DNA of 64,000 nucleotides, taken from the NCBI GenBank assembly GCA_002118135.1, contig BDIU01000135.1, positions 1 through 64,000 on the forward strand. Direction: 5' to 3'. The translations under genes and the position numbers were made by a program. This document shows positions 9,020-49,900 of this stretch, one piece after another; position 1 is the stretch's first letter, and every line of letters starts with the position of its first letter. This stretch comes from Trebouxia sp. TZW2008 (lineage: Eukaryota > Chlorophyta > Trebouxiophyceae > Trebouxiales > Trebouxiaceae). The notes beneath the pieces are model-generated. The model was not told the origin of the DNA. It ran no database searches and saw only the letters and a program-made list of their open reading frames with translations.

Positions 9020-12000
9020 ATGCCTCGGACCTCAGGGTCACAGCGTGAGTTGCGGACGGTACTCATCGACCTGGATGACTGCTTGTATCGAGCTCCGGAG
9101 ATGCCTGAGCTGGTTCGCGAAAACATACAGAGTAGGTCACTGTGCTTCATTAGCTGCCTGCAAGTGACTTGAGCGATGCCTCTTTGCTGTGTGACACTGA
9201 CGGTCTGCCTGGGCATGTGAAGGGTATATGCGAGAGCAGCTAGGCGTCCCAAAGGATGAAGTGACAGCACTATGCCTGTCAGCATACACAAACCACGGCA
9301 CAACGATGGCAGGCCTCGTGGTCAGTACAAGCCTGCCACCGAAAAGAATTTCAGACTTTGCCTAAGACTGCAACATCTGTTGAGACACCGTGCAGGCAGG
9401 CGGGTACCAGATTGATGTGGATGACTGGCATAGGCATGTGCACCACACCCTGCCATATGAGAGATATCTGCAAAGGGATGATGCCTTGCGAGAAATGCTG
9501 CAAAAGATAAAACTTCCGAAGTATGTCTTCACAAATGGGGACAGAAAACACGCAGAGATATGCTTGCGCTTGTTGGGCATCACAGATTGCTTTCAGGTGC
9601 AGCGCCTTCTTGCCATGAACACTGCTTTGGTTCCCAGTACAACAGTCCCTGCATCAACTTGGTCTTACTCAGAGCTACCACTGCAGTGATTTGTCTCCAG
9701 TTGCATCAGCCTTACAGTGAGAATGTTCTTGCATTGGGTGTCCTTATAAATAAGTGACTGTAGCAAAAGCAGGCACCCTAGCTGACATCCCTGCAACTAT
9801 AGACATTGTCAAGCTTCAGATGCATGACCTGTATCTGGGAGTGCAGTCAGCTCATTTATAGTGGCCGTGACCTGGTTTGCAAAGACAACTGCCACAAGCA
9901 TTCAAGGGTGCTGTTTGCCATAACAGTATTGTGGATGCTGCAGCTGTGGACACTTCAGAAGTTCAGCTGCATGACCTGTACCTGAGGTTGCAATCAGCTC
10001 ATTTGCAGTCCATGACTAAGTCTAGACAGAGGCTTCCATAATGATGCCTAAATGCCATTTGGCACAGACTTTTCTTTTCAGTTTCTGATTGCTAAAAAAT
10101 TATGCCACCTGCATTGCAGGGTGTTGTCTGTTATGAAAGCATCATGGATGCAGCTGAAGACAAGGGGTATGTCCATCACGGCGCGCCTGTCATATGCAAA
10201 CCCAGTTTCAAAGTACGGCGACTTATAACAAGCCTCTGCGCCTGTTATGTTGCTAGCTGCTGACCATCAGCTGCAAAAACTACTACAAGCTTTGTATGGC
10301 CTGTACACCATGCAATCTGTCACAAGAGACTGACCATTTTGCTTTGCTAGCTGCTACATACTCAGCGGCTAACACAAACTGTCACAATCCTGATGTCACC
10401 TGTGCATCATGCTGTCTGTCAGAGCATACTGAATTGGTGCCTGCTGACAAATAGCTGCCAAAATAGAATTTCACACCCTTTACGTCGCCTATGACCCATG
10501 TCCGCAGGCTTGCAATGGTGTGCTCAGATAAGTATGTGCTCTTCAAGCAAGCATCTTAGGCGTTGTGCTTGTATACGTCCCGCCCTGACTGCTCACATGT
10601 CCCACATGGGCAGACAGCTTGTCTGCTTTAACCCAAGATGCTGCCTTGTATGATGTTCAACAGCTGGATATTGTTGCCGTGACGCTCAGAATAAGCTGGC
10701 CTGGCAAGACAGCCTTTGTGCCACCTAGCACCTAAGCCAGAACATGGCATGTGGTATCTTTCGAAATTGCTGTGAGAAGGTGTGACAGCTTTTGCCATGT
10801 GTGCAGGCAGTAGAGACAGGGATTGTGCCATACAACTAGCGTTTATGCTAGGACGTGTGATGTTTGCATTTTAGATGCTGTGAAAAGGTGTGACAGCTTC
10901 TGCCATGCGTGCAGGCGATCGAGCTAGCCTTGGAACAGGCTGGCAACGCATCAGCAGAAACCACCATCTTCATGGATGACAGCACACGCAACATTGTTGC
11001 TGGTCACAAGAAGGGCCTTGCAACAGTTCTGGTAAGTACAGACTTCTGACGCATTGAAGCATAAAGAAGAAAAGAAAAGAAAAGTCTATGCTGTTGGACA
11101 TTACACCAGCAGGCTTTGTGTGAGCAGCTCAGCCAATGTCCATTGCATTGTGCGAGGTGCTGAAGTCACACCAAAGGGCATTACATGATGTTGGACGCCC
11201 ATCACATGCAAGTATGTGGTAGTGCTGGGCTACTCATAGAGGCTCCCATGGTGATGCCTGATGGCATAGACCGTTTTGTTCCTGTTTCCTGTGTGGGTGC
11301 AGTACAGAGCAGAAACACAAGCATTGCTGTGTGCATAGTGATGTGCTTCAAAGTTGTTGATGTTAGTGACTGTTGCTGAGCCTTTGTGGGTCCTGGCATT
11401 CTCTTGCACCTAATGGCATGAAGTTGTCTGAGAAGCTGTGGCAGAGGACCCACCTGTTTTAAATACTTGACCAGAGTTGATACTGAATGCATGCACCTAA
11501 ATCATCTGTTAAAATGTTTGACAGTGGCTATCATCATGTAGTAGTGACCACAGGAAGGCCTAGTCAGAAGCTGACTTATGCAGGTTATTGTGTCATACAT
11601 ACCCCGTTGCTAAAGTTCCAAGCTTGCCTAGAAGAAAGCGAAAATGTGGCATCTACGGCACAAAATGTTTGCGCCGTAGATGTCAGCATGAAAGCTCCTG
11701 TGGTCAGAAGCACGCCATAGATTGCTGTCTGGCTTAGCAGCCTGGGCCTGCTGCCTTTATTGCAGTAAACAGCAAAATCCTAAGGGAGGTCAGGCCCCTG
11801 TTTAGCAAGCATATTTGACGACTTCTGTACCACTGATGTTCAGGTTGGGCGCACTGGTATGGACACAGGAGCAGAAGCAGAGATTCTGAGCTTGCTAGAT
11901 TTGCCAAATTCTGCGCCAGAGATCTGGCAGCTTCTGACAGCACAAGATAGTGCAAGCAAGCATGTGAGCAATGGAGCGCCGCAAAGCAAAAGCAAGATGA

Positions 12001-12056
12001 GCAGTCCCGGAGACATTCTTTCTGCAGATGCGCGAGTTCCCATGCTGACCGCGTGA
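9020..12056 (+). CDS. HAD-superfamily pyrimidine 5'-nucleotidase-like (SDT1/Phm8 group)
   Basis: Six exons: 9020-9131, 9223-9320, 9396-9596, 10120-10212, 10915-11031, 11844-12056, all phase-consistent, about 277 residues. HAD motif I is VLIDLDDCLY near the N-terminus. The cap region follows, with NHGTTMAGLV and DVDDWHRHVHHTLPYE. Motif II is VFTNGDRKHA, the motif III lysine is in APVICKPS, and motif IV is IFMDDSTRNIVAGHKKGL. This order is characteristic of plant and fungal pyrimidine 5'-nucleotidases, which hydrolyse UMP/CMP-type nucleotides; cytosolic action is inferred. The tail after residue 200 is low-complexity and non-conserved. The upstream in-frame start at 8960 is GTG, so 9020 is the first ATG. 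Introns 3 and 4 contain repeats and decayed copies of exon edges. Confidence 0.88.
9797..10020 (+). repeat. tandem repeat with decayed copy of HAD exon 4
   Basis: The block 9905-9951 (GGTGCTGTTTGCCATAACAG...) is a mutated copy of the start of exon 4 (GGTGTTGTCTGTTATGAAAG at 10120). Around it, 9797-9862 repeats at 9949-10020 (CAGATGCATGACCTGTATCT versus CAGCTGCATGACCTGTACCT). The unit length is about 150 bases. A second copied edge, 10769-10818, matches the intron end and start of exon 5 at 10880-10925 (GGTGTGACAGCTT...GTGCAGGC). Confidence 0.65.
10014..10080 (+). repeat. paired-hairpin dispersed repeat, copy 2
   Basis: It matches copy 1 over TCTAGACAGAGGCTTCCAT, then ATGATGCC and a CTTTTCTTTT tract. 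The second stem is TGCC (10045-10048) with GGCA (10061-10064), enclosing an inner AAATG/CATTT pair. It lies in intron 3 of the HAD gene. Confidence 0.55.
10695..10865 (+). mobile_element. two SINE-like fragments, copies D and E
   Basis: 10695-10760 carries the GGCCTGGCAAGACAGC...TTGTGCC block with a CTAGC/GCCAG-type hairpin. 10820-10865 carries ATTGTGCCATACA followed by a perfect stem CTAGC (10836-10840) and GCTAG (10847-10851). Both are internal fragments without a tail, inside intron 4 of the HAD gene. Confidence 0.45.
11228..11292 (+). repeat. paired-hairpin dispersed repeat, copy 3
   Basis: It reads TAGAGGCTCCCATGGTGATG and then stem 2 ATGCC (11254-11258) / GGCAT (11263-11267) around a TGAT loop, followed by TAGACCGTTTTGTTCC. 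Stem 2 differs from copy 1 (ACGCC/GGCGT) by a paired C:G to T:A change. Intron 5 of the HAD gene. Confidence 0.55.
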
Positions 12057-13152: not shown

Positions 13153-16100
13153 ATGCATATCGCCGCTCCGATGCACTCAAGCTTGCTGAGCAGCAAGACT
13201 AGCACTGCACACCTGTTTGCCGCGCGACCTCAGCCCAGCAGAAGATCGTTGCATCGCTCTGGTGCCGTGTGCAGCGCTCGCAAGCAGGAACGACAACATG
13301 CAGGTGGGCTAACCGACCGTACCTGCTGTTCACGGGATCCGCTGTTGCATCTGTTTCTGCGGCTGCTCTGCTTGCCCGATCAAGGATCAGCAGCCGCGCT
13401 CCGTTCTAGCACTCTGCAAGCCTTATCTTGCCTGAGGGGCGCCTGCTGCTGCTGGCCGACGCAACTGTGCGGACTGATGTGGACGCATGCTGCATGCAGC
13501 ATCAGCCCCATCAGCTCCCGTGGCCCTCATGACATTAATGGCTACGTGGCCGGCCTACGCTGCTGGCGGAGGCGCTGACTTAGCCAGGCCATCAACAGCA
13601 GCAGTTGAGCAAGCAGCACCAGCAATCAAGTCAGCTGTGCAAGCTGCACCAAACGTGCTGCAGTCAGGCAACATAGATCAGGCCATCAACTCTGTTGTGG
13701 ATGCAGTCAAGGTAGGCATGGTTGTCACCAATACACCTGATTTGTGACCGGTGCACCTGATTTCTTCACACGCAATACCAATATGACACATGTCTAAACA
13801 CACCATACTTCACATGCCAGGCTAAACACTGTCAGCATTAACCCAAGTGGGAATTGCTGAACATGAGCACATGCAGACAGCCTTGATTCACTGCATGACT
13901 CAGCGCAGTCAGATATGCAATGTGCAATGCAGCAGCAAAACAACATGCGTATTGCATGTTACCTGTTGGTGTCAATGTGATGCATATTTCACAATCTGCA
14001 CTCATCTCAGTATTTGATACTCTCAAGTGTCATATGTTGCACAGTGCGTACTTATTGTTGACTCTCAAATGGCATGTGTTGCTCAATGTGTGTTGAGTAT
14101 CGCATACTGACAATTGCGGTGATGTACTGCACTGCAGGCAGCTGGAGGTGGGGTAAAGAGCTTGGCAGCTGCTGCTGGCAGTGGGCTTGAATACGCTCAG
14201 TCGGTAAGCAAATGCAGTACATGGAGCAACGCCCATTGCTTGCGTTGACACGTACACCTTCTTGCTCAGCATGCAGCTTACATGCACTCAGAATGTGACT
14301 AAGCATCTGCGGTCAGACTGCTGTTGCCATGCACCATGTTCTGCAAACACGATGCCCCAGAAGTTTGTATATATACTTTGGGTGCTGCCTCTCTGCGGGA
14401 GGCAGGCACCTGACTTCTGTGACAGCATCTGAATTGACAATCACCATGTGCATCCTTTCTCACGTTGAGCGCTGCAGCTGTACTGCAGCTGAGCATCCGC
14501 ACATGCTGCTCAGTATCACACATGACGCACTCTTGTCATGATCACATGAGCGATAGACCTTATATTATCATTGCTGTGCACATTTTCACATTTTCACATT
14601 TTCACATGTTCACATTTGCATGCATCAGGCATGTAGCTGGGGCTGACAGATTCAGTTGAAAAGATTGGTCAATCCTCTTCGGTCCAAGACTCTCAGTTGA
14701 TGTCAATCAAGATAGAAGACACCTTTGACGGTCTCTCTGTTGAAATGACTCCATCAAATCTGTCAGGGCTGCGCTTGGTTTCGAAGCACAAGTGTTGTCC
14801 ATGCTGAACCCAACTGGGTCTTCTGCTGTGCGCAGGTGTATGAGCGAGTTGCGCCTGTTGTTCAAGATGCAGCCACCACTGCGTCCCCATATGTGCAGTC
14901 TGCCATTTCTGCAGCTGGGGAGGTTGCCAAGCCTGCCTTATCAGCTGTGGAGCCAACCATCAAGGTACTTGTTATGCACAAAATTGTTGTTGCCTGCGAT
15001 GTTTCACAACAGTCTAGCCAACCATGCAGGGATCTCAAATCCATTTTCTCAGTGGGCCGTAACAGCAGTCAATGGAGCTGATTCACAGAAAACTTCTAGC
15101 CAACTCATTTGTGTGGGTACTTCCATGAAGTCTAGCTTACTTTTCTGCCTACCTTGCTTGGTGTCGGTCCTGTTTTTTTCGACAGACTATGGTCATGTGC
15201 GCTTCCAGTTTTACAAATTCTTTTGCAGTCTGTGTTAAAGGAGGCACAAAATTTCTTGAGCTGTAACAGACCCAACATACCAGCCATAGCCAGGAAAGCA
15301 GGAAAGTCACAATAGCAGCATACAGCTATTTCGAACTTCATGCATGGCCTCAGGGTGTTCACTGCACTGTTGCATGTGATGTTTTACAGTCTGGGTCAGG
15401 AGAGGCTCAGAAGTTCCTGAGTTGTAATGGATACAACACACCGGCCATCGCCAGCAAAGCAGGAAAAAGGAACAACAGCAGCCAAGAATACTGTTTACTT
15501 TTGTCCATTGCTACAGAGGGCTGCTGTGCATACACTCAGGCTGATGTTTATGATCTTCTGCAGTCTGGTTTGGGAGAGGCTCAGAAGTTCTTGAGCTCAA
15601 ATGGAGTCAACACACCAGCCATCGCCAGCAAAGCAGGAAAAGCCACAACAGCAGCCGAAGGCGCTTTCCAACAGGCCAAACCTGGTCTTAGCAGCTCCCT
15701 TACATCTCTGGCATCAAGAGACCCTGGAACGCTGGCTGAGTATGCGCTAGGTGCCATTGTCTTCTACTACTTGGTGAGTATTTCTTGAGCGTCCTCCTCA
15801 TTGCTTGCATGATATGTAGACCGAGTCTTTAGCCCTCGCTGAGTTGGCACTTGGCATCAAAATTTTGTATTGCAATGCAAGCTCAGTCATTTTAGCTCAA
15901 AGGTGATTCTGTCTTAGGCATTTGTCAGCATAGCCACTGGCTGCCCAACAGATGCCAGCTATTTAAGAGATAACAGATGCCAGCTGTCAGAACAGATGCC
16001 AGCCACCTGAAAACAGCTGTGCACTGTTGTATGGCGCAGTCAGAAATTTGACAGGCTCCCTGTCTTTGGCCTCAACATCACCTGGAGAAACGTGCTGCTG

Positions 16101-19100
16101 AATGTGATGTGGGTGTCTTGCTATAATGTGATCTTTACCAGGTCAAATGGTTCCAGCCACATAGGAAGACATTGTTTTGGCTGTGCTTTGCGCATTGCAC
16201 ACCCGCACTCGCTGCTCTTCAATGACGCCTGAACAGCTTGCGGCAAAGCCAGAACAGCTATCATCATATGATGTGCACTGTGCATTAGCGCTCACTGCTG
16301 ACTCGTGAGATCTGAGAGCATGCATTGAAGTCTGCGCACTGGACACAGGACAGCCATTTGCCCAGCTGAGAGCTGAGAGGCAGTAGCATAGACTACGCCA
16401 AGGTGCAGAGCTGCGCATTTCTTGTGTGTCTGCACAGCTATGTACCCTTGCGTAATCTGTGCAGCTGCCTTACTGCTCTTTTCGGGGGTGTTGACCCCCC
16501 CAACACCACAACATGGCAATCCAATAATCATCAACTCTGCCATGATTCCTCAATGTGAGTGGCCTAAGTCTACCTTGCCAGGCTGGCTTGTTTTGCCGAC
16601 TGTTCTGGTCACATATTTGAGGCGTTCGGAGCTTATGTCTGTGATCACAAAAGCAAGCCTATCAGACCAGCTGCAGAAAGAAAAGTCTCATAGTGCAATT
16701 GCTGTGCAAAGCTGACACATGATCATGGTGTGGCTATTGTGGCAGTCTTTACAAGCTTGCAGTGCTTGATCGTGCTTGCCGTTGAATACCGGGGGTCCAA
16801 TCAGCAGCAATCTGGGCCCGATCACTACAGTCATTTGTAGGCTGCCACAACTGCCACACAATGATTAGTCATTGACTTTGCATAGCAGAACTTGTTTTGG
16901 GAGCTGATGTCTTGCTCATTTGTCATTTGTCATGGCTATTTTAGGCGATGCGCCACTCCTGACTACAAGGAATGTATACAGATGAAGCAGATGTAACAAT
17001 CACCGGCAACATGTAATGGCGCTGCGGCTCTCTCCTTGACTCCTTGATGGAATAATTCTGTCTTTCTTGCAGTGTTGCTAAACCAGCTCAGCTGAGTAAT
17101 TTGCTTGTGTGCAGTCCTACGAGGTTCTGGCGAGCATCAAGAGAGCAGACAATTCTCACTTCCTCATGTCTTCACAAGAGCTCAATTTGCACAACACATC
17201 CTATCACATGCGCCATTTGTTGAGCTGTTTCTATTAGCCCTGAACCACATATGGTGTCATTGCCATGATAATGCAGGCGCCACCACTTTTCAAGGGCCTG
17301 TCCGGGGCGATCAGGGGCTATGGGAGGGACATCAGCCCTGCTGCAGCCCTAGATCTGGTTGCTGGAGGTGGCAACATTGTCATTGTGGACATCCGCAGTG
17401 ATAGAGAAAAGGAGAATGGTGGAGTACCAGACTTGCCATCTGGCAACAGGTCAGATTCTCTATCGAACACCATTTCATGCGTCTGCATTGTGTGTTTACG
17501 CATGTCACTATGTTTTGTGGCCAAGTACTTTACCAGACTTGCCCTCAGGCAACAGGTCAGCCCTTCTTCAATTGTGTCTCTGTGTACATCTGCCGTTTCT
17601 CATCCTGTCCTTTTTGTCTTGGATTCACTTCTGCATGCCTTTAGTTCCTGCTGAGCATCTATCAGACTTGCAATCTTTGTCCTCTGGCAATAGGTCATTC
17701 TTCCTGCAAGCTGCCTCCGTGTTCATCTGCCTTGGGCCTCTTTGTGCACGGATTCTGTGTAAGGCTTGCTGATGTAGCAGGTCCACATGGAGCTGGCAGG
17801 TGTGGTATCTGCATTCACATCTGGCATGTGCACATTCATGCATGCCTGTATGGGTGTGCAGGCTGAAAGAGGTGGAGTATGCAGAGATCCAACACTGCAG
17901 AGTCAGGGCAACCACAGTAGGGTTGTGCTTTCTTTGATGTGCGGGGTGGTGAAAGTCATAGCACAGCGCTAACTTGCTCAGCACAGGCTCAGCAGGCTAA
18001 TGGGCGTCACAGGGCAAAGCTAATATTCTGATGGGTGTGCAGGCTGATAGAGGTGGAGTATGCAGAATTTCAGGACTGCAAAGTCAGGGCAGCTCATTTG
18101 GGACCATGAGTTTGTGTGAGTTTTGACATGCAGGCTAAGTCATAGTGCATGGATTACTTGCTCAGAAGTGTGCAGGCTGAGAAGGCAGTACAAAGTCTGA
18201 TTGCTGACAGATGTGCAGGCTGATAGAAGTGGAGTACGCTGAGATTCAGGACCGCAAAGTCAGGGGCCAGCTGTCAAATGTGGGCGCCATTGAGCGACAG
18301 GTCAGTCACAGCCTCAATTTGGATAGTAAGGGCCATGAAAATTGTGTTCTTTTGCATATATGCCATGGTCTAAGGTCAGTGACAGTCACAGCTTGCACAA
18401 CAATGGCCATATATGACTACATTGCTTTGCATACTTGCCAGGCGTATGCTCTGACTCGACAACTGCGCATTGCCAGTTATGGTCCAAAGATGAGTTGCCT
18501 CATGTACACCTTGACAAACTGGCCCAGGAAGCTCTGCTGCGCACTCCCTTATGAGGTTATAGCCTTGCTCTTCGTGCTAGCTTGTCAAATCCCAACCAAG
18601 GCAGCCAAGTTTGATAGCAAAGTAGCGTCCAGTCCATCGAATGAGATCAGACACTTATGTCTGACGAATGCAGCCAGGTCTCACAGCTGGACAGGTTTGT
18701 GATAAGTGCAATTTGTGTTGCTCAAGCAGTCAATTTGCAAGTCCTGCTGTGTGACATTGCAACATTCACATACCTCATATCTGCAAACAAGCCCACTGCC
18801 TTGTCACAAAAAAAAGTGTCGAGAGCAATTTTAGAAGCCGACAGGTGTTTTTGGACCCTTCCAGCACCCGTACCTGTTAGATGAAACTGTCAGAAATATA
18901 ACGTCAATGAGGCGGATGGTGTTGCACAGCGCAAAAAACTTGCAAGGCTTCTGCCAAAGGTCAAGATGCTCTCTGCAACAATATCTTCTTGACTAAGGAA
19001 ATAGGGAACACAAGTAGATACGACTAGGACTACGAGTATACGTAGATACGACAAGTACAGATCCGTCCCAGCCAGCAGTGAAAGTCAGCAGACATTGCAA

Positions 19101-22100
19101 GGATTGCAACGTCTAAAGCATGATCTCTGCGCTGCTCATGTTGATCGTGTTTGTTCAGTGCTGACTGCACAGTTGTGACCTGGCCTGGCAATGGCACAGG
19201 CGGCCTAGCATGCCAGGTTTTAGCAGGACCATGCTTTTGCCTGGTCAAGGTGAACACTGGCATGCTGAGCTGCGCTGCTATGTGCTGCCGAGCTGTTTCA
19301 AATGCAAAGGCCGGGTTTTGGTAAGAGCAACAGCACGTTGATGCACTGTTGCAGGCAAGAGCAAAGTCTAATTTGAGTTAGCCATGCCATTGCAATCAGC
19401 GCTCTTGTCTCGCTTGGCTGCAATCCTGGTTTGTACCCTAAACCCTAAACCCTAAAACCCTAGCCTTTTTACACTGCTATCTTGGGGTTCTGGCCGGCCA
19501 TCTGCTGAGCTGTCACACCTGCAAAGGCAAGCTTCCAGCAACAGGCTATAGCGAAGGCACCTCAGGGTTCTAGATTCCATTCAAACCAGCGCCATGTTCT
19601 GTGTTGTGGTCTAGTAAGGCGCTTGCATTTGCAAGGCAACATGAGCATTAGAATTGGCAACAACAGGCAACACAGTTCGTGAGTTGCTTTGTGTCTTGCC
19701 CGTGGCTTGCCAACAAGCAATATGCAGGCAGCATGTCAGTTGGCATGTCAGGGACGGCTTAGTACATGAGCAACAGTTGCTGATGTACTAAGCTCTCTCT
19801 GATACTCAGCTGTGTCATGCTGTCAGGTGCTGCGCAGCCTTAGATAGAGTGTGCAGCGTCCATGCATCGCAATGAACGCTATGAAAGCACACGCAAAAGG
19901 CACTGTATGCATTTCTAAGAGTTGATCAGAGCTGCATCAGCGCTGACCCACCTTCCACCTCCCCCCATCCCTCCTGGGCTTCCCCCTTGGCAATAGGGAC
20001 TAGTTGGGTGGGGGAAAGGGGGGTCTTGGCTATGCTATGAGGCACAGCTCTTGAAGCATCACCTGAGTTGCATCAACTGAGTTGCCTCAGCCAAACCAAG
20101 CACACTTGTAGAATTGTGTGTCCTGCATGCCTTTCAGAAACAGCTTGAGGCACAGGTGCAGTCTGACTGCCTGCATGCAAAGCAGATTATATCTGTACTT
20201 TGATCTGCTTCCAGATAAGGAAACACTCACACAAATTGCTAGTTACAAATAGAGTGGGCCCTCTCATATTGCAGATTCGACACACCCAAGTGCAACACAA
20301 AATTATAACAGTGCATGAATAATCACCTGTCAGAGGCACGTTCAACTGCCTCGAGTTCAAATTGGATGGCCCGTCACTGCTGAGTCATTCCATATTGAGT
20401 GTGTTGGGACCATACAATAATGCATGATGCAGCTGAGGCGGCACAACAATTTACTTTGCAATATTGTGGCAGCACCCTGTCCAACTAAGAATAGACTACT
20501 ATGGCAGCACACTGTCCACAACAAGGTTGATAGCAGATCAAGGTTTGTTCTCAATCAGGACAGGCAGGTCGGGGCTGCTTGTAGTCTTGTCATGAACACA
20601 ACCCTTGGAATTCTTTAGATTGTCAGGAGATTGCCTTACCTTATGCTGGGCAGTGCCCCAAAAGCGCAAAGACTTGTGTTTGCCTTGACAGACATTGTGT
20701 GGGCACGCTATCGCCTTGCTATTGACAGCTTAACCAAAATTTCTATCTCAAAAAGCTTACACCTGCTCCAAGGCCCTACCTTGCCAACAAAGTCAACAGA
20801 TGGGTAACAGCACACAATCATCTTTGAATCCACGCACATACAGGCCTGTCAAGTCTCCACAGCAAATTGAAGATTACTCTGGAGATCAGCTTGACCTGGT
20901 TGTGTTCTTGGGTGCTTCCTGTTTGTTGGTTACTTGACATTGCTAACTGGTCATCCCCTGGTGTGTCTTGGTGTTTTGGAAAAGTGGTTTGGTGGTCGCA
21001 GGTGACAGCTCTGCAGATTGCATCTCTGAAGAGGGTCAACAAGCGCACTCAAATCCTGCTGCTGGACAAGAACGGCAGCACCAGCAAAGTCATCGCCAGG
21101 GAATTGGGCCGCAGAGGTTTCAGGAAAACACGTGTCATCCAGGTGTGTGTCTATTGGCAAAAGTGCGTATATCCTGCATGTGTTAAAACTTGCACCAAAG
21201 TCATTGCCAGCTTGGCCGCAGAGGTTTCAGGAAAACACGCGTCATCCAGGTTTGTGCCTGCTGACACACCTGCACGCATGCTGCATGCATCACATGCACG
21301 AAAGTTAAGCAAGCTTAGTATGAAACCAAGTATAGCAACGTTATCGCCAGAAGGCTTGGCCGCAGAGGTCTCAGGAAATCACGTGTTATTCAGATATGCT
21401 TTTATGTCTTCATACAGTGCGACCCCGTACTGGTCCAACTTACAGCACAATGCATAAATACAAGCTGAACTGGGCTGCAAATGCCAGTCACCATGGTAAA
21501 CTTACGGGCTGAATACAACAGCTGGCAAGACACAACAATCCAACGCCAATGGATCAAATGCTGTTCCCTTGTGGCGCCATCACTCTGCTGTTGCTTTAGT
21601 GACTGCAACAACAGCTCAGAGTTTCAGCAGGGTTTGCCTAGTCACTGTGAATCTGCAGGGAGGATTCAGCGGCTGGACCAGCAGCAAGCTACAAACCAAG
21701 CTCTCCAACACAGTCTCAGCAGTTGAGATTTTGGCGCCAGTGTTTGGCACCCAAAAGAGCACGCAAAAGAAGGCATCAAGCAATGGCAGGGTAAGCCACA
21801 TATTTGTGTACAGTAACTCTCTTTGTAACGACTGCTTTAGTAATCAAGAAGTTGGTCCTTGCATCAAACTGTCCGTACCCAGAGAGACAAATGCAGTCAG
21901 AATGCAGTGATTGATCACCCATGGCGTTGTCCTTACACTGAGATCGTCCTTACATTGAGATCGTTCTTACATTAAGTGTCCTGTCAAGGAGTTTACTGTA
22001 GCCTGTGGCATTGTGTGCAATCTGCCCTGTCATTCCATTCATTCATTCTAAATGTGTGCTAGACAGGCTCAGCAGGCCCAGCTAGGTACGTACTGCAGCA

Positions 22101-22641: not shown

Positions 22642-25095
22642 GCAGCAAATCAGAAATCAGCCTCTGCAAAGCACTTTTACCATTACATTTGACTAGAGTG
22701 AAGAGTTATGTCTGCTGGCGTCAGATGCACAGATGCTTCAGTAACAGTCTGTTTGAGCGGCAGGATGATCAATAATACAACAATATTGTGGTCTAGCCAA
22801 AGGACTCAACAGTTCCTTGAGTGCTGAGCAGCGCTTGTGATAGATGTGACATATTGACCAGTAACACTATTGAACGAGGACAGCATGTTTGAGTATATGA
22901 GATAATTGTAGATTGCATAACTTCTCCTTAGTCTTGCATGGCTATGCATCTCTGTTCTGACATTTACATCTATATTTACTATGCTTTGGGTTGTAATGAC
23001 TTCTGATGTGTTGTGCCTTACAAATTGGCAAATGGTCTCGAGCACAAGCAGTGTCATGCACTGGCAATCACCGTGTCGGACTCAATGTTTTCTACTGTAT
23101 GCTGGAGCTGAAACTTGGGCAATGCAGCATTTCACGTCTTTTCCTAACAAAGCACATTCTTGGCGATGGCAGAACTTGTAGCTGCAGCATGCGCAATGTG
23201 TAGTGCATGCATACTCGCACACGTCAACAGCAAATCATCCGCTGGTTGGCGTTCGAGCAGCGATTGCTTTGATAGCTACTGCTGGAAATTCCAGCAGCAA
23301 GTCTGATACTGCGTCCAAGGCATGCGATAGGTCTCTCAGTTTGAATGCCAAGCTAACGCTTTGTTGCAACAGTGACATCATAGTCAAGCACAATACCATC
23401 TATTTTGCAAGGCCTTTTGGACTGTGCTGTGCAGATTTCAAAGCACTGCATGTATCTCAAACAAGCTAGACAGGGTGTGCGTCAGGCATGCTGCAGCACT
23501 CTGGGTAATCTAAGTCCCATGTTGCATTGCTGATTGGCTTTGACTTGCACAATGCCATTGGGCATGCTGTAGCATTCTGGGTAATCTAATCCGCAGGTTG
23601 CGCTGCTGATTGGCTTTGACTGGCACTATGCCTTGGACAGGCTCCTGAGCTGTACCGTCTCCCGCACTGAAAGTGTGGCGTCTCAAGGGATTGTGCATGC
23701 GAGCCTGTGCTAAGGCCTGCTGTGATTGCTTGCCTGTCGACGGCTGAGCCTGCTTGGTTTTGTCTGCAGTCCCTTGGTCAGTTTCAGCAGGGCTGCCTGT
23801 AATGATAGTAACAATAGTCAGTCTCACTGTTCAGCGTGAGTGCTAGGTGCGTGACTGAGATTGTAGCGCCCCAAGGGGTTGTGCCATGCGCGCCTGTGCT
23901 GTGGCCTGCTGTGATTGCTTGCCTGGCATTCACTGAGCCTGCCCAACTTTGTCTGTGGTTCCAAGGTCAGTTTCAGCAGAACCGCCTGCAGTGATAGTAA
24001 ACCCAGCCGTTCTTCTGTTTACAGAAAAGCTCAGTATGTACAGTACTGGACTTGTCTCCAAGTGTTTGCTGTAATTGAAGTATGCCATGACTAATAACGC
24101 ACGTGGCCTGCTGCATCTTGAGTTGTCGTGCATGCTGCCAAACCAAATGAGAGTCAAGCTTTAAGTGAGAACGCACTTCTCGGCAACAATGATAATCAAA
24201 TTTGCCTTTTAAAAAGTAGTCAATACACACTGTACATGCTAACATAAGTGCCCTTACTGGTGAGTATATCCAAGCCGCCGATTGGAGCACTGCCGAAAAA
24301 GGGTCGATCTGCTGCATAGATTTGCAGGGGTGGCTTTTGGGGGGCCCCCCTCAGGGGTGTTGGAGTCTGTGTTGGGTCAGGCCCACAGCAAGCAAAGGGG
24401 CTTTGTCCTACTACAGTCATTGGGTTCTTGTCTGGAGACACTGTAGTTGACTTGCCCAATGGTGGCTTGCCTGCAGCATATACTATAGTTTTCAATGAAT
24501 CAGCCAATTATGCCAGCAATATCTTGCAATACTATAGTTTTCAATGGATCAGCCAATTGTGCCAGCAATATTTTGCAATTCTGCATTGTTTTGTGCGACT
24601 TTCACAACCACAAGTTGAGCATTAGACGTCCATTTTGTGCTGTTCAGAACAAGCCAGCCTGACAAGACAAGACTTGAGCCATGCACATCTAGCACTCTTG
24701 CTGGAAAGTGTAATGATCATTATCATCATTACCAGGAATATGTTGAGACTTGCTGACTGCAGAAAGTGTAGTCCAGATGCGAAGCAAGCTGCTGCAACAT
24801 GGCACAGCGTGTGCAACATATGTGTGACAATGCATGTATGGATGCTGCTGTGCCGTACTGCCAGCCACTGTCAAAAGCCTGTTGTCTGCATCTGACTGAT
24901 TGCCTGGTGTGTTTGGCATGACACAGTGACTGCAGGACTGGATGTTACAGTGCGTGGAGGCATGTGTCAAAAACATCGCCAGTTCTCCACCAGCAGCATG
25001 CACATTGCAAACAGTGCAGCAAAACTAGCCTTGTACATTGGCTCATGCTCAACAGATGTTTTTGATCACTGCTCACAAACAGGATCTGGTGACTT
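22642..25095. repeat. gene-free tract with local tandem duplications
   Basis: Between the converging rhodanese-like and kinase genes I see no exon. Tandem duplications are evident: about 90 bases at 23485-23630 (CTGGGTAATCTAA, then GCTGATTGGCTTTGACT); about 190 bases at 23690-23985 (GCCTGCTGTGATTGCTTGCC, then GGTCAGTTTCAGCAG); and about 48 bases at 24482-24578 (ACTATAGTTTTCAATG, then CAGCCAATT). A reversed copy of the GTTGGGCCTGCTGAGC element sits just before, at 22022-22090. Confidence 0.6.
24651..24735 (+). mobile_element. SINE-like short element, copy B
   Basis: It reads AAGCCAGCCTGACAAGACAA, a TTGAGCC block, the hairpin TAGCA-N4-TGCTGG (around 24688-24704), then AAAGTGTAATGATCATTATC and a short ATC/ATT tail. 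Same order as copy A at 7421. Confidence 0.5.
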
Positions 25096-25567
25096 TCACC
25101 TGAACTGCAATGAACTGTTCTTTGCAGTAGCAACACATGACAACACAAGCTGCATTTGCTTGAAAGCAGATCTAGTTGCACCTGTCAGAATCTTTTGGGT
25201 CTTGTGGCTTTGCAGGGCTCTTTCCAGAAGGCCCCTGACTGCTATGATGATGTCCTCAACGTGTGGTCGCTCTGTAGGATCCTCTGCCCAACACGCCTGC
25301 AGTGCAGAGACACAGTGATTCTGATGTCCTTGCATTTAAGGGTGTTCAAGAATCCCCTCGATGCTACAATGACGTCTTCAAGGCGTAGCCGCTCTGCACA
25401 AATCTCTGCCCAGTATGCCTGGAATGCAGACGTGCAAGCATGCTCATGTCATTCTCTGGACTCCCATGGTGCATCATGTACAACGGGCAAGCATTGATGT
25501 GCATGTGAGCTCAGCAACAAGGGCAGGCAAAGACTATGCCAAGTGATGGTGTGCTGATCTAGTCTTT

Positions 25568-25604
<37 letters not shown>

Positions 25605-35700: not shown

Positions 35701-38700
35701 GACAGATAATTCAAGTGACTGGACAGACAGATTTCTAACCACGCCCACAGATAAATAGACAGACAATTTGTCATTATCAAACAGACAGACAGTTTGTCAG
35801 CCAGACAGACCACCAATGTCATGCGCAGTCAGTGACATAAACAGACAAACAGACAGACTGATAGGAAACAAGCCAGACAGGCAACTAGACCGACAAACAG
35901 ATGGTGACAGGGTCACAGGCAGATGTTGAGACAGAGAGTGAGACAGACGAGTGGACAGACATTGTCAGAAGCGCTCAGATGGGCAGACGCCAAAGTGCAC
36001 AAATAGACTGACAGTCTTTTGTCATGTATCAGTTTGGTGTTCTTGGTGTTTCTGCAGGCCATTGAGAAGGTTGCTGAGGAGCAGAAGGAGGCAACAGCCC
36101 GCACTGCTAAGATGCGCACTCTGGGCAACATCAGGCTCATTGCCGAGTTGTTCAAGAAGAGTGTGGTGCCAGAGAAGATTGTGCACATGTGCGTACAAGA
36201 CCTCATTGGCGACGCCAAGCAGGAACCCGCAGAGAACAATGTTGAGGCAAGTCAAAGCTGCAGATCTGCGCAAAACGTGTGATGCAGCTTGTTGATGATA
36301 GAATATTTTCCACACATGTTGCCCACACAAGAGAACATGCTAGCAAACACATGCTGCACTTGGTCAAAGGGTGCCTCAGCATTTTTCAGGTTGCTCACAG
36401 GTCTGAGCTGTTGGCCAAGATAAAAAGTCATCAAGCTGTTAGACTCATAACGGCCTCGCCAGACATCATCTCAACAGGCTGCAGCTGACCAGATGCATGA
36501 CACAGCTTGTGTCAGCTGCTTGTTGTGTAGTCACATCTTTGACGGGTCGTCACAGCCGTGAGAAAAAGCTATATCTGCTTGTTGCCAGTTGTTGCCATTT
36601 CTGCCAGGTTGTGACTGCTCTTGGAAACCAGCTTGGCTGCTGCAATACAGCATTGTCACCAAACAGACGCTGCTCTGGTCCCAACAGCGGCTCTGCTTCT
36701 TTACTTCAGAGCATACTGCACGCATTGTACGTGCTGGCAAGAAGAAGAGCAGCCGCTGTTCTGTCAAGAGCAGCATCTGCTGGATTGACTGCTTGCAAAA
36801 TAGCTTGATAGTTGTTTCATGGTGAAGGTCATTGTCTGCAGCAGTCTTAATCTGTCAATGTGAAGCGCTTCAGCTGCAAAGCAACTTCTGCACTCAAGCA
36901 CTACATCTTGTCATGCTGCTTTTTTCTGGGTGTGACAGCAGCTGTACACATAGTCCTCAGTGTATGTCGTTGATGTCTTGCTGGCGTGCCCATCAAGTTA
37001 AGCCTGAATATCTAGCAAATGTCGGACGTGTCACATGATGCTTGACTGCAGCATATGACCTGCTATTGATCACAGTGTAAAACCGAGCATTTGTAGGATG
37101 CCTGCGCTTTCCTCAGTGGTTGTGGAGAATGCCATGTCTATTGGATGGCTGTTGCCATCTGGTGCACATGGCTCCTCAACAAACGCTGGACTCCTGCTGG
37201 GTGTCCCACACTGTTGATGTAATTGATGTCCTGGGAACAAATCAGAAAGCTTTCTGGGGACCTGATTTAGAAGTGCGTGCAACAACTTCAGGTCCATAGT
37301 CTGGACTAGAACCGTATTCCAGCGGGCAACAAGCTTGAGTGTGTTTGCTGATGCAATAGTGTGATCCTGCTTCAAGGGTGCTGTTCCAAATGTTGAGAGC
37401 CAGTAGCAAATCTGCTGTAATCGTCGGTAACCTGAATCATAGACACAGTCAGTATTTGCAGGCAGCTGAAGGCAATCCAATTGGTTTTGTTAGACCCAGT
37501 GCATTGTATATGTTTTTGACCTGCTGATCTGCCCTGCTTAATGTCGCCCATTTGTGTCAGATGCAAGCCTGCATGATCAGAGATAGGGACAGATGGCTAG
37601 GGATTCATACCTCCAAGCTGCACGCATGCATGATGACATCAGCAGTGACTCATATGACTGTCTGTGCAATCACGCATAGGCGCCTAGCAGTGCAATGCTC
37701 AACTAGTGTGGTGAGCTTGCTCCTTGATAAGGCGCATGCACCCTGTTGCCAAGTGGTGTTCCAGCAGAATTTGAGCACACCGCAATCGCAGCAATCATGC
37801 AGTCAATGGGTGTATGTGGGGGAAGATGTAGACGCTCAGTGGAGTCATGAGCATATTGATGTCTCCCCCAAAGTTGTCAATTCACTGATTGCATACTGGC
37901 TGTGATGCTGTCGCACATGCTTCCCACATGCTGGCTTTGCATGTCAGCAAGATGCCATAGCTGCCAAGGCAAAAGCAGGTCCTGTCTACTCTGTGTGCGC
38001 ACCAGAGCCCACAGAGAGCTGCTCAGCTGCAGGTCTGGACTTTTTACTTAAGCCAATTATGTGCTGCTGCTGCAAAATGTATTGCAGACAAATGTCACAA
38101 CATCACACTAGACATGCAGTCAATCAATCTGCCATTGCATCATGGTTCACCAAATATTTCAATGAACAGCTTCATGGTGTCCTGCAGGCTGTTTGCGAGC
38201 TGTTGACGGTCGCTGGCAAAACCTTGGACACAGCCTCTCCTCAGAGCAAGCAGAAAACATCATCCTACTTCACTGTCATGGACAAGTGGATGGGCAGCAA
38301 GCTGTTGCCCAGCAGGACGCGCTTCATGGTGCGGGATCTCATCGAGCTGAGGCGCAGCAACTGGATCCCTCGTAGGGCGCAACTACAGGTGAGGCATATG
38401 TTATTGTAAAGGGAGAAACATCATGTCATTCTGCTCTGTAGGCAAGACAGGATAGGGGGCTGATGCAGAGTTGCCATCGTTGTGCGGTTCTATCTTAGCA
38501 TGTTGGTGCATCTGCTTTTATAACATGCAGGCATCTGGCAGTCGGACTACACAGTAACCATTTTGTGGGCTAAGACAGTTGAGGAGGTTCATGCTGAAGG
38601 TCATGCAGAGCTGCAGGCCAACATCATGTATTTTATGCATTTCAGTGCAGCACCATCAACATCATCTGGGCCGTAGCGTTTCAAAGTGACATACAACATT

Positions 38701-41700
38701 ACTCTGTAGGCCAAGACAATAGAGGAGATCCATGCAGAGGCTCACGCTGAGCTGGGCATGATGCCAGCCACGCTCAGATCAGCCCTTGAGACCGCATCTC
38801 CTCTGCCAAGACTGCCTGACAACAGTGATACATTGTTCTGTAGGCCAAGACGATAGAGGAGATCCATGCAGAGGCTCATGCTGAGCTTGGCATGATGCCC
38901 GCCACGCTCATACCCGCCCTTGAGAGCTTATCCGCCCTGCCCAAACAGCCTGATGAGGTTGAGCTCTTCCCATCATTCAAGGGAGGTATGTACATCTGAG
39001 CTTTGCTTGCTGTTGCCATACCGTTGGGACCGAAGATTGGTCCATATGAAATTTTGCTGCTACCGTATCTGCTGCCAAGCTCTGCAGCTATCACAATGTC
39101 AAGCTCCCCTCTTTCGTGCATTGCCTGGATTCTCACTCAGGCCCAGTCCACAACTCTGATGATCATGTCACCGAATGATAGCCACTGCGTAGGATTGTTG
39201 CGCCTTGCACCGAATTCGGCAGCTGCAGGCTTGCAGTGGTGCCTGATGCAAGAGTGCTGCGCGGTGCCTTTCACAAACGAGCACTTCACTAGACTTCCTA
39301 CATCCATAACAGTATTGTGCAGTGCTGGTCAGTCAGGATGAAAGAAACTGACAGCCAGGTCCTGCCTGTCAATGTATTTCCATCCTCAAAAATAGGCACT
39401 GCACAGTCTGTTTGTAGAATCCAAACTTTTGACAAAGTTGTTGCTCTATCTGCTGTTGAGCTCTGCTGCTGCCCTAAAGCACCCTCCCTCCGCTGGTGCA
39501 ACTGCAATCGCACTGACTCCAGTTGCAAGCTTTCATGAATTTGGTCTCTGAGTGACAGGCACCACCTGACGTTGTTGTATCATGCACTGAGTTTGATCCC
39601 CGCAGGCTTGTAGGGTGTCTGACGCAAGAGTGATGTGCGGTGTCTATCGCACAGCAGCAGCTTCACTAGACCTCTTGAATCAGTAAATATGTCATGTGGC
39701 GCCTGTACTAGGCAATTTTGATATGCTTCCTGAGTCTATCAACATGTTGTGCAGTGCATATCACACAAGTGCAGCCTCGACACATTTCTTGAATCCATAC
39801 ATATGTTGTGCAGTATCTGTTACTCAGGATCCCACCAGCACTGACAGCCAAATTCTGCCTGTCCCTGCTTCATTGATCGTCAGTGATAGGCACTGCACAG
39901 TCTGTCTGCAGCATTAGGAATTTGGATGAAGCTGTGGCTCAGCCAGGCGTTGCTGGTCAGTGCTTGCTTGATCTGAAATAGTGGGCACCAGCACAATTGC
40001 AGAACCAGTCAGTCTGCTGAATCTGCTTCTCAGCCAGGTCTTGTGTGTCAGCTTTTGCCTGATGGTGCTCTGATTGAGGACCAAAAACCCATGCTTTTGA
40101 TGCAAAAGAAGTGTCTTGGTTTCTAAAGGTGAGGACTGGCAAACAATGATCAGAAGGGGGACAAATCAAGGTGGCAGTGCCTTGACCGGAGACTGGAAAC
40201 CCATGGAGGCTGCCCCTCAGCCTGAACCCACCCCCGCCCCCTCCCAACCCACCCCCTCTGCCCAGCCACAACAAGCTGCTGCCAGGTCAGAAACCAGCTT
40301 TGCCTTGTTGGCGAGGTTCATGTTCTGTTGCACAGCAAAGATTGTCACTGTTGCAGCACATGCATCACAGCGACATGATGGCAACATTTGTGAGCTCAAT
40401 TTGCTTTATGTTCCTGCATACAGGTCAAGCTGCAGGCAAAAGCGCTTTGCGACCTCGATGTGCTTGCATGCAAGTGCTTGCACGTGAATGCCTGTGTATG
40501 GGTAGAGTGACTGTTTGGCTGCTGTGTGTGCAGCAATGGCAAGAAGGACATGTCAGAGGAACAGCGGCAGCTGCGGTGTCAAGGGCTGTTTGATGAGTTC
40601 CTGCAGAACATCGACCTTAATGAAGCTGTCCTTTCTGCTCAGGAACTTGCAACACCAGGTACTTGATTTCTGCTTGGAGATTACATGCTTTGTGCACTCT
40701 GGACTCACCATGTATCTAACTATATGGTATTCATGCAATGGCTGCATGCTGTTCTGCATTGATGTTGACAATAATGGTCCATGTCTTTGATTCACAAGTG
40801 GGTCCTGCTCACATTCAGCATGTGTATTGCAATGCAGATTTCTGATTGCAGCACATGCTTTGTGGTGGACTTATGAGGTTCTGGGTACGCAATGGAGACC
40901 AGTTTGTGCCTATAGTTGCTGTACTACGAGACTCATGTGTCCTGAGGCTGTCATTTTGCATCTTGCAGATTTCACGCCACAGATAGTGAGGACTGGCATC
41001 AGTAAGCTATTTGAGGTGACCAGGGAAAAGGATCAAAGCTCATTGGTCACAGTGTTGGTCGGGCTACAGAAGAAGGGCGTGCTGACTTCAGAGCAGCTTC
41101 TTGCTGGTATCAGGAAATCTACAGACCAGCTAGAAGATCTCAGGTCAGTCACTGATTGGGTAGAAAACTTATGCCTGCAAAAACGCTCAAAGCAGACAGA
41201 GACAATCTGCTTGAATGACCAAGTTGCTTTCAAAAGCTTGCAACAGAGGCGTATCCAGCAAAGGTAAATAATATGGCCACATTGCAAAGCCTTGACTGTG
41301 CTGAACACAGCATCATCTTTCTACTAATCAAGGCGTGCATTGTTTTGCATGATTGCCCTGTGCAGCTTGCTCATTTTGTAACATGTTTGTGATCACACAG
41401 ATGCCAGCTGATTGTCAGATGGCTGCATGAGTGATGACTGCAAGGTTCTCAGCTAAAAATTTGTCGCTTATGCAGATTGGACATTCCAAAGGCGCCTCTG
41501 CTGCTTGGCCAGTTGCTTGGGAGTGCTATCAGTCAGAAAAGCTTTGGCAGTGAAGCTCTACAAGAAGTGTGTGAACCCATCGAGGACTCTGAAGCCAGGC
41601 GTGAGTTGCTTGTCCATGTGTTGAAGACAGTGCAGGTGAGACCACATGGTCCTCATCCAGTCAAGCACAATGCCGCGATATGTCATGTTGTGGTATTGGA

Positions 41701-46900: not shown

Positions 46901-49900
46901 CAAGAGCCCCAGCAGGAATGGCCACCTCCAGGGCCCCTTGATCTAGTCCTGCCAGACACTCATGACTCACCAGACATCTCGCCAAACTCCAAGGGTGGCC
47001 CCATGTGAGCATCGCAGCCTTGTGGCTAGCCCAGTCCATGTGTTTTTCAAGTCTCAGACTTTGCATTTTGCCCCTTCAGCATTGAATCAATCAACGCATC
47101 TTGTCATGCATCGTGGCCATATCAAGAATCCCAGCAGGGCCGACTGCCCCCAGGCCCCCTTGGTATAGTCCTGCCAGACTTGCCCAGGGCTTGTTGTCGT
47201 GAGTTGAGGCCTGAAGCGTCCTGGCTTCCTGCAGCATTTTACCCAAGTCAGTTTGTCACAAACCATGGCAGATTATCTGTAGGCATTGCTCAGTTGAGCA
47301 ACCACATGGCATAGCAGGCATATATGGGTGGCCATGTCAAGGCAAGTCTATACTGTCACTACAGATACATGAGATACTTTGCAAAGGTCTGGATGCACCT
47401 GTTTGCCTTGAGCAGGTGTCAGCTGTCAAGAATTGAGTTTCACGGAGATCTTGTGCAACGTACATCAATTGGATTGATTTGGCTCAGTTGCACCGTAATG
47501 ATAATCATCAAGCACGAGCTGATGTGGTATAACAGCCTGCCTGCCTGCTTGCAATGCATGCTGTTCAGCCTGAAGCAGGGCACACGTTTCATTGGGCTGA
47601 TCCCAAGCAGAGCAACACAATCAAGTCCTTTGAAGACCCTGGCACAGTCAGCTGCACTCCAAACACAGCAGGTTGCTGCATTAGGGCATGTGTCTTTCTA
47701 AGGCAAAGATGCCTATGTATACATGATGACAACAACAACAACACATTACACTTCCAGCATGCATTGCTGGATGTGTGCGGCACAAGTCCTGTCTACCAGA
47801 CACGCTTGTCCTGAGCATCACGATAAGGGCGTCTGATGTTCAACTGTTGAAAGTAAGACAGAAAAGTGTCATTCCAGATCTTCCCAGGTTGACCTGCAGG
47901 GTTCGATCCTATGTGTGCATGCAGAGTAGATGACATGGTGGTGGCAGCAGTCATCAGCTTGCAGGATCCTGTGGGTTCCGGAGCAGACGACATCTGTACC
48001 TGGATTGAGGTATTTGTTCATTAATTCATTCATCCGATCTGTTTACCAGGCAGGCTTTGATTTCCAGCGGCTAGGTACACACAGGCGCAATTATCTGCCT
48101 CCATGCAACCCTGTCTGAGGCTGTGCTGAACCAACAAACCTGGACATGCAGGGCAGAGGTATGGTGCCCTGACTGTCTGATGCATAGCTCATATGTCAAC
48201 ATGCAGGACTCGGTTGAACAAAGGAGTATAGCAGTTGCGGGCTGCCTCTATAGATGGAGGCTCCCGTCATGATGGCTGATGACGCAGAATTTCTGTTTGT
48301 TTGAATTCTTTCTCTTTTCCTTTAGAGCATCTGCGCAACTGCAATGACAGATGCATAGCTCCCTATACACAACATTGGTGCAGATGCTCTTTTTCTTGAT
48401 TGCAGTATTGTGTTAAATTGACAGATGTGTAGCTTCTTTGCACACATCCCTTGTGATCATGGCGATGCCATGCAGTGTTGGCAAAGGGATTGCATGCACC
48501 AAAGTTTGCCAGCCTCCTCATTTGTGGCAGCAGCTTTGCAAGCACTGTACATATGTCGCTTGTTATTAAAAGTGATCTGACAGTATGCACAGGTGTGAGC
48601 TGTTGCTGTCAGTTTGGTTAAGTATGATGACCCCTCATCATCTGCGCAGCTGGACTTGTCGCGTCTACAATTATCACCAAGGCAGCAGCTGTTGCTTGCG
48701 AACATACTAGCCATAAGCCAACACTATGTCTTGTACTTGCCTTGCCCTGTGCTTTGCCAAAAAGCAAGTCATCATGTGCAATTGACTGAGAGTTCTGCTT
48801 CAGCATTGCAATCAACAATGGCTCTGCAAGCTCATGACTGCCCTTGATTTGCAATTTAAACCACCAAAATGTTGTCATACTTTCTGATTTTTCATCAAAA
48901 AGAAAGTGTTGATTGATTGACTGATCAATACCTGTGCCCGCGCAGACGCGAGGTAGGTAAAGGTATGCCTCACCCTGTTTCTGTAGCACATAGGAGAAGA
49001 AAGTATTATGTTGATGTAATGTCGATGCTGCCTTGCCCTCAGAATCATTACCCAGCATGGGGCAGAGAGAAGGTCAAGTTAGTCATGACCCACATGGTTC
49101 AAGAAGGCTGCCTTCAATTTGTTCTCAACTGCCCTGGCCTAGTCAGATTTGCGTGAATGCTTGCTTTGCAAAACTATGACTTTGTTAAGACTGTACATGA
49201 CCCACATCATGATTGGTGCTGCCTTCAGGACCACTACCCAGCAGTGGACAGGGAGAAGGTCAAGGTGGTCATGACTCACATGGTCCAAGCAGGCCGCCTT
49301 CAACCTGTTCCCAACTGCCCTGGCCTAGTCAGGATGGGTGGTGTTGTCAGACAGCTGGTAGACCAAGAAGCGCTGCCCATGCACTTGCCTGATGACGCCT
49401 TGACTCACGAAGATGACATGCAAGACACAGTCATCAATGAAAAGGCAAGCCATAACGTCAATCAGTCCATTGATCAGCATTGTTCATGCACTTGCATGAT
49501 GACGCTTGACTCATGAAGGTCACATGAAAGAGGCAGTCGTTGATGGAAAGGCAAGCCATGACGTCAATCAACCCATGAACCGGCAGGAGCTCTTGTCTGG
49601 GTCATGGCCCCAATATGACTCATTGTCCTCCATGGTCTTCAAAGCAAGACGCAGGTGATGCTGGCTGTTGATGCTTCACTTGAATGAACCTGTGCAAAAG
49701 TCTTGTTTGTTTCATGATGTGAGCAGGATGCTGTGCCTGTGTAACATGCAAGGTGGCAAAAGCAGATGTGATCTGTTGTAGTGATACCTGCATTGTTTTC
49801 AAAACATCAGCTATGCACAGGCCCTATTGGTTTGCAGCAGCATAGCAGCCTGCCAACATGACAGTTCAACAATGCATACCTCTCATGTATGCTGCACCAC

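Follow-up and report, generated by a model that had tools for sequence, protein, structure and literature searches.

We analysed a window of 64,000 nucleotides from the lichen-type green alga Trebouxia sp. TZW2008 (BDIU01000135.1, positions 1-64,000; assembly GCA_002118135.1, with 527 contigs and 68.5 Mb in total), in which introns contain partial copies of the edges of their own flanking exons, many of them together with a splice site. The genome of Trebouxia sp. A48 is described as 69.1 Mb with 49.7% GC (PMC12712428). Exons were counted where spliced alignment to homologous proteins defined them. Four genes were modelled in this way: a HAD gene (6 exons, aligned to P0011), a CaS gene that the initial annotation had named rhodanese-like (10 exons over 9.5 kb, aligned to P0010), a Raf-like kinase gene on the minus strand (8 exons, aligned to P0001 and P0004), and an eIF4G gene (15 exons, aligned to P0037). 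Among named proteins, those that best match the Raf-like, CaS, and eIF4G genes come from Trebouxia. Pfam matches further along the window indicate an Arf-family gene near 51 kb, with ARL1 and other Arf members undistinguished, and RETICULATA-like exons.

The initial annotation had described copies at a dozen or more exons in five genes and proposed that introns grow by local duplication centred on exon borders, an observation that was partly confirmed. Copies were found at 11 edges on 9 exons, belonging to three genes (CaS, Raf-like, and eIF4G). The description of one to three copies per edge was correct, and the spacing of the nearest copies, given earlier as 120-180 bp, was ~106-184 bp in the window arrays.

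Copied exon edges in the window genes

The CaS gene provides the clearest view of how the copies are treated by splicing. Its joined exons translate exactly into P0010, a database protein of 443 residues, followed by a TAG stop. We take P0010 to be transcript-derived because its source contigs are short (longest 1920 bases) relative to the 9.5-kb span of the gene, and the protein therefore probably reflects the spliced messenger. This match is the sole near-direct view of a messenger in our study. The joined exons bypass every copy, so that the protein is unchanged by the duplications in this gene.

Four CaS edges are copied, in exons 5, 6, 7, and 8 (plus strand). The protein-included copy of exon 5 (15564..15773) is preceded by two copies of its 5' edge, both of which keep their AG: a younger one at 15377..15486, 174 bp away and ~85% identical, and an older one at 15219..15319, 335 bp away, ~78-81% identical, and carrying a 1-bp deletion. 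Exon 6 has its true 3' edge and its donor, placed by spliced alignment, at 17425..17454; they recur 106 bp downstream at 17531..17560 with 93% identity and a GT, and a third, weaker relic can be seen by eye near 17640-17700. Upstream of the protein-included copy of exon 7 (18219..18300), copies of the 5' edge with AG lie at 18028..18091 (younger, distance ~180 bp) and 17846..17910 (older, distance 357 bp). Exon 8, whose true 3' edge was placed by spliced alignment (21002..21142), is followed by a first copy at 21193..21256 (local score 77) and a second at 21334..21393 that is 80% identical as protein over 20 residues.

Six edges of the Raf-like gene are copied (all coordinates on the minus strand); one tally gave seven by adding an intron 5 donor match only 16 bp long. 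The 3' edge of exon 2 has a downstream copy with GT at 28684..28789 (distance 172 bp, 88% identical), with smaller relics at 28582-28708. Exon 3 has copies on both sides, an upstream copy of its 5' edge that has lost the AG (28222..28307) and a downstream copy of its 3' edge with GT (27742..27813). Exon 4 likewise has an upstream copy of its 5' edge, again with the AG lost (27327..27404), and three downstream copies of its 3' edge within 26588..27016 (26925-27016, 26746-26826, and 26588-26670), the identity of which drops with distance from 91 to 80 to 74%. The 5' edge of exon 7 has an upstream copy that keeps its AG (25345..25430). Near the 3' part of the gene, where exons are uncurated, three direct repeats with periods of 76, 188, and ~50 occupy 23485..24579 (no strand assigned).

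In eIF4G there is a single array, and the copying is weak, at 1 of 28 edges. Exon 10 (38844..38985, plus strand, from spliced alignment) has an upstream copy of its 5' edge with AG at 38696..38819, 134 bp away and 85% identical. The comparison of curated introns also placed a repeat wholly in intron 10 (39225..39940, plus strand). The HAD gene, by contrast with the earlier claim, had no copy at any of 10 edges in the edge test described below. Its repeats (plus strand) lie wholly in intron 3 (9791..10004, copies 9791-9857 and 9938-10004) or end at the exon 5 acceptor with 2 exonic bases (10768..10916, copies 10768-10808 and 10876-10916).

Two modelled introns in these genes start with GC (eIF4G intron 8 at 36247 and Raf-like intron 6 at 25646), as does one in a DnaK gene considered below. 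An 80-bp stretch of eIF4G intron 6 (34865-34944) matches its own reverse complement at 81%, and eIF4G intron 7 contains CAGA-rich simple sequence (35503-35960).

Prevalence, orientation, and side of the copies

Each exon edge was compared, as a 60-bp probe, with its own intron (z > 4 in the first window test). The first 32 window introns gave copies at 11 of 64 edges (5 donor, 6 acceptor), compared to 1 of 64 with the intron reverse-complemented. Our main set combines 32 window introns with 32 introns from AAA-family loci, making 64 homology-bordered introns with 128 exon edges; CaS introns 7-9 are excluded from it. The AAA-locus exons were defined by alignment to E. coli FtsH at an identity of 0.33-0.67, which is distant for several loci, and single borders are possibly off. 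The exon filter was applied to 17 of 25 AAA loci and yielded introns from 14. The remaining loci (L025, L033, L035, L037, L038, L040, L043, and L044) were omitted as overlapping or weakly aligned; among them, L025 is repeat-rich and L033 and L037 are repeat-free.

In this main set, 28 of 128 exon edges (about one in five) have a copy in their own intron. Controls gave 0 of 128 with the reverse complement, 0 of 640 with shuffled introns, and 10 of 7416 with the introns of other loci, placing intron-to-own-exon similarity above the background against which the initial annotation had proposed to measure it. Probes taken from the far edge of the same exon matched in 1 of 87 cases and mid-exon probes in 4 of 54. 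An extra set of 15 introns from ClpB and DnaK genes, chosen because stacked partial matches to these genes were already visible in protein tables, had copies at 6 of 30 edges.

The copies are direct and local, as in small tandem duplications. Comparing the window with itself (BLAST, E 1e-4) returned 32 pairs, 28 of which are direct and 50-402 bp apart; of the others, three belong to a single dispersed repeat and one is a stretch inverted on itself. The same bias held in a sample of 24 pieces (233,883 bp) comprising six window pieces and 18 loci drawn from a fixed place in other contigs: pairs within 600 bp were direct in 191 cases and inverted in 6, and one shuffle of each piece produced no repeat pairs. 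Division of the spacings by three left remainders of 0, 1, and 2 in 56, 70, and 65 cases, showing no tie to codons. After nine pairs in long open reading frames (ORFs) with spacing divisible by three were removed as probable coding repeats, 82 arrays remained, covering 15.3% of the sampled sequence with a median period of 141 bp (interquartile 108-175). Local direct arrays were present in 16 of the 18 loci from other contigs, and their number per piece was overdispersed (mean 3.42, variance 7.82). One locus was very dense (L018:1939-10000, with 32 near pairs whose spans sum to ~7.1 kb of 10 kb), and six of the 25 AAA loci (L020, L021, L022, L033, L034, and L037) had no local direct repeat, others being saturated.

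Within the 64 curated introns, all 58 BLAST pairs were direct (23 acceptor, 18 donor, 14 intron-only, 2 joining both exons, and 1 within-exon). The ClpB and DnaK introns contributed another 15 direct pairs (7 acceptor, 3 donor, 5 intron-only), and no inverted copy occurred in any of the 79 curated introns. Recognisable copies make up 19.8% of 39,856 intronic bases. Among 41 border pairs, 37 come within 10 bp of the border and 35 cross it.

Of 49 exon-intron pairs, 47 have the copy on the side described earlier, upstream for a 5' edge and downstream for a 3' edge (15 of 15 in window genes and 32 of 34 in AAA loci). This side rule was scanned over whole genes, in which a copy can fall on either side, since two-exon segments permit one side only; the first and last exons of every AAA alignment were omitted. 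Genome-wide protein tables for ClpB (28 matches) and DnaK (46 matches) contained five stacks by eye, ignoring overlaps of less than ~20 residues between adjoining exons, and all five were on the predicted side. For example, ClpB on C143 has residues 292-336 in two copies, separated by ~155 bp, which lie upstream of the exon encoding residues 292-361.

Introns with a copy were longer than those without (median 607 bp for 21 introns versus 365 bp for 43, p = 0.0017), which supports the earlier proposal that introns grow by local direct duplication, although longer introns also give old copies more room to survive. Genes differed in the share of their edges copied, from 12 of 16 in three AAA loci and 6 of 14 in the Raf-like gene to 1 of 28 in eIF4G and 0 of 10 in HAD, and arrays clustered by gene (permutation p = 0.0001). 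Our guess at the reason for these differences is that strongly expressed genes are under selection against stray splice sites.

Repeats also occur elsewhere in the window. Two direct repeats with periods of 186 and 107 lie at 49034..49570 (plus strand, unconfirmed), in the region that the initial annotation had called TRB. The repeats are real; the exons and the identity of the gene are unconfirmed, and four scanned ORFs of 46.8-50.4 kb had no Pfam support. The ARL1 and RETICULATA region had been offered as a repeat-free contrast, and indeed 50-64 kb contains no local direct pair by BLAST, but Tandem Repeats Finder (TRF) lists a 30-bp unit present twice at 55072-55131 and two shorter units. 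A tandem array with a period of 134, 3.5 copies, and 91% matches, one of the few of near-full-unit extent, lies at 44709-45176 beside a further gene. The dispersed repeat noted above is ~100 bp long and occurs at 22026-22123, 46228-46286, and 55952-56048, its window copies being 82-83% alike; it recurs at least 40 times in the genome (of 1480 first-look candidates, 40 were scored) and is possibly a short interspersed element. A short internal run of the telomere-like unit ACCCTAA is found at 19435-19462.

Origin and decay of the copies

The copies look like unconstrained relics that decay roughly as neutral DNA. In 14 window exon-copy pairs, some of which share an exon, there were 48, 45, and 97 mismatches at codon positions 1, 2, and 3, with ~346 sites each. 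The resulting rate at position 3 (28%) is about double that at positions 1-2 (13.4%), which fits a neutral copy of a constrained exon because position 3 compares two free sequences and positions 1-2 only one. In the 27 nearest copies, mean identity was 82.5% over the exonic stretch and 65% over the 40 intronic bases next to it. Many copies carry a splice dinucleotide, as the initial annotation had stated: it is kept in 18 of these 27, where ~0.75 is computed from 13% per-base decay, and it is in register in 24 of all 44 copies. Simulated neutral duplication gave a matched flank identity of 0.61-0.64, compared to an observed mean of 0.633 (21 pairs). Similarity did not rise from the nearest copy to the next in 8 of 11 multi-copy arrays, the clearest gradient being that of Raf-like exon 4. 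Small internal gaps relative to the exon were present in 7 of 14 window copies, and gaps of any kind in 11 of the 27 nearest copies, some of the latter perhaps being alignment-end effects. Alternative tandem exons would be whole exons with two splice sites and an open frame, in use, whereas the window copies are exon edges. No internal repeats were found in 20 homologous proteins. Together with the gaps and the exclusion of the copies from the CaS protein, this leaves the earlier suggestion that the copies are raw material for new exons unsupported.

We propose, with a probability of roughly three in four, that small tandem duplications filtered by splicing pad these introns and strand exon edges within them. 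Small direct tandem duplications, with units of ~70-220 bp (median 141), would arise often in the genome. Whenever a unit straddled an exon border, the edge would come to exist twice: once still attached to the body of the exon and once stranded in the intron, complete with a splice site. The site next to the exon body would remain the one in use, leaving messenger and protein unchanged and the intron one unit longer, and the stranded edge would decay without constraint. Repeated events would place new copies beside the exon and push older ones outward. If the unit spans an acceptor, the remainder of the exon follows only the downstream copy, so copies of 5' edges lie upstream; if it spans a donor, the remainder of the exon precedes only the upstream copy, and copies of 3' edges lie downstream. 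The side rule would thus follow from duplication and a conserved protein, needing no targeting or special mechanism. Units were presumably contiguous at origin, and selection would remove the other outcomes of duplication. The nearest known process, fill-in of staggered breaks followed by end joining, may be the repair route. Stepwise lengthening of introns by duplication is supported by these results, and the interpretation given in the initial annotation is, as a whole, partly supported.

Several observations weigh against this proposal. The side rule has exceptions (two of the 34 AAA pairs, both at L032), 4 of 41 border pairs miss the border by over 10 bp, and 3 of the 11 multi-copy arrays have their more similar copy farther from the exon. 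Aligned length relative to spacing averaged 0.76 (21 pairs) compared to 0.84-0.86 in simulation, with fractions of 0.005, 0.035, and 0.057 of simulations at or below the observed value under three settings. The identities of exonic part and flank were uncorrelated (-0.04, versus 0.39-0.47 simulated), a value reached or undercut in fractions of 0.015, 0.0015, and 0.014 of simulations. Even among pairs with at least 88% identity, the alignment was shorter than the spacing by at least 28 bp in 17 of 19, some of which join non-neighbouring copies. Such short alignments are not predicted by plain contiguous duplication, although some arrays do align over the full unit according to TRF, including that of eIF4G exon 10. 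Later rearrangement, repair capture, or conversion could lie behind both the missing correlation and the short alignments. We considered gene conversion between exon and copy as an explanation for the former, but it should act on intron-only arrays too.

Arrays also touch exon borders more often than uniform duplication would have it. Border-touching arrays numbered 27 of 31 in the main set and 34 of 41 with ClpB and DnaK (counts that omit one within-exon component and one joining both exons), whereas a simulation of uniform duplication with neutral decay placed 0.42-0.54 of detected arrays at a border. Uniform placement in these introns would itself put ~0.40-0.45 of duplications there. With expectations of 0.46-0.54 the binomial P lies between 1e-6 and 1e-4, and it rises to 0.02-0.05 if the true visibility-corrected expectation is 0.70, and all of these tests overstate independence because arrays cluster by gene. 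Visibility alone as the cause was not borne out by simulation. The excess is therefore likely but not proven, and the phrase "centred on exon borders" in the initial annotation is partly supported by the counts. A process favouring borders, in which duplications start in or at exons through chromatin, replication, or transcription and introns grow from their ends, would account for it and is a tentative possibility. The sensitivity of P to the expectation and the clustering of arrays count against such a process, as does the choice of the ClpB and DnaK introns for copies already seen in protein matches. Moreover, the uniform simulation yields the same exonic extents as seen in the copies (median 71, interquartile 49-98 bp). 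A more elaborate version, in which border-preferring duplication is ongoing or recent, introns grow outward in layers with stranded edges as dated strata, and genes differ sharply, strikes us as somewhat doubtful.

In another reading, a broken intron would be patched with a nearby piece of exon edge, so that copy and source were never contiguous. The DNA between many copies aligns poorly even where the copies are 85-93% identical, and local repair duplications that bring exons with splice sites into adjacent introns have been discussed for vertebrates (PMC2671141). Repair capture is nevertheless unlikely: it should produce both orientations, yet curated introns contain none inverted, full-unit tandem arrays exist, as at eIF4G exon 10, and flanks on average fit neutral contiguous duplication. 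It is quite improbable that the stranded edges are functional, as decoy or alternative splice sites selected, for example, to lower output through faulty splicing. The in-register dinucleotides would suit such a role, as would some high-identity copies with poorly conserved flanks and a position-3 to positions-1-2 ratio of 2.1, at the upper end for a neutral copy; however, dinucleotide retention matches neutral decay, half of the window copies have internal gaps, and the CaS protein skips its copies. Introner-like or other mobile elements also sit in introns and carry splice sites, but here the copies are local and match their own exon, and the few edge matches in introns of other loci possibly reflect related exons. 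Rather than one sequence dispersed into many genes, the Raf-like exon 4 array, the sole one searched genome-wide, had one weak other match (76%, 95 bp) in 68.5 Mb, which makes a mobile origin very hard to credit. We give practically no credence to an artefact of assembly collapse or expansion, in favour of which no evidence was found, given that copies differ by ~4-40%, the sampled sequence has 16 N in all, and the arrays recur across loci of other contigs.

Relation to known systems

Tandem exon duplication, including mutually exclusive exons, repeats exon sequence in tandem inside a gene. The copies described here differ in being mostly decaying edges with one splice site that are absent from the one exactly matched protein. 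Related cases include yeast rad27 duplications, those reported at paired nicks in plants (Schiml 2016), and the natural insertions reported in rice (Vaughn and Bennetzen 2014).

Our preferred reading, small tandem duplication filtered by splicing, has its closest counterpart in break repair, where CST/Pol alpha fill-in and end joining generate small tandem duplications that are described as an abundant source of insertions (PMC8355091). The likeness lies in their being direct, local, and small; the introduction of that paper deals with human insertions of less than 100 bp, whereas units here measure ~70-220 bp and have for the most part diverged. The gain of introns through tandem duplication with splice sites has been described for potato RdRp (PMC4974935) and for cases in Drosophila (PMC2891723). 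There, too, extra splice sites come from duplicated exon or exon-intron sequence, and the Rogers model leaves the peptide unaltered, as is the case for CaS. In those systems a new intron arises, whereas here an existing intron is seemingly lengthened, at several borders per gene. The vertebrate repair-mediated duplications (PMC2671141) resemble ours as short local duplicates, for which the placing of exons with splice sites in the adjacent intron is discussed. That study removed duplicates 50 bp or less from their source as tandem, and it differs from our curated introns, where orientation is direct only and some borders have several copies.

Among the matches listed in open-licence literature, there was no report of the exon-edge pattern in Trebouxia, nor of any genome with about one-fifth of tested exon edges carrying such relics. 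The words "tandem" and "exon" are absent from the main text, as far as it was available, of two Trebouxia genome papers (PMC12712428 and PMC11523091). In our judgement, tandem duplication at splice sites is already known and the new element is its density, about one in five tested edges. We judge this density to be unusual, as a figure from a single genome with no other eukaryote compared.

To our knowledge, intron lengthening by means other than transposons has rarely been observed directly. In this alga the source of an added piece can be read because one of the copies is a constrained exon edge, which allows the rate, side, age, and loss of such pieces to be tallied for each gene. In genomes of this kind, ab initio gene prediction will face many false exon edges, and the same edges form a natural experiment on the choice that splicing makes between near-identical sites.

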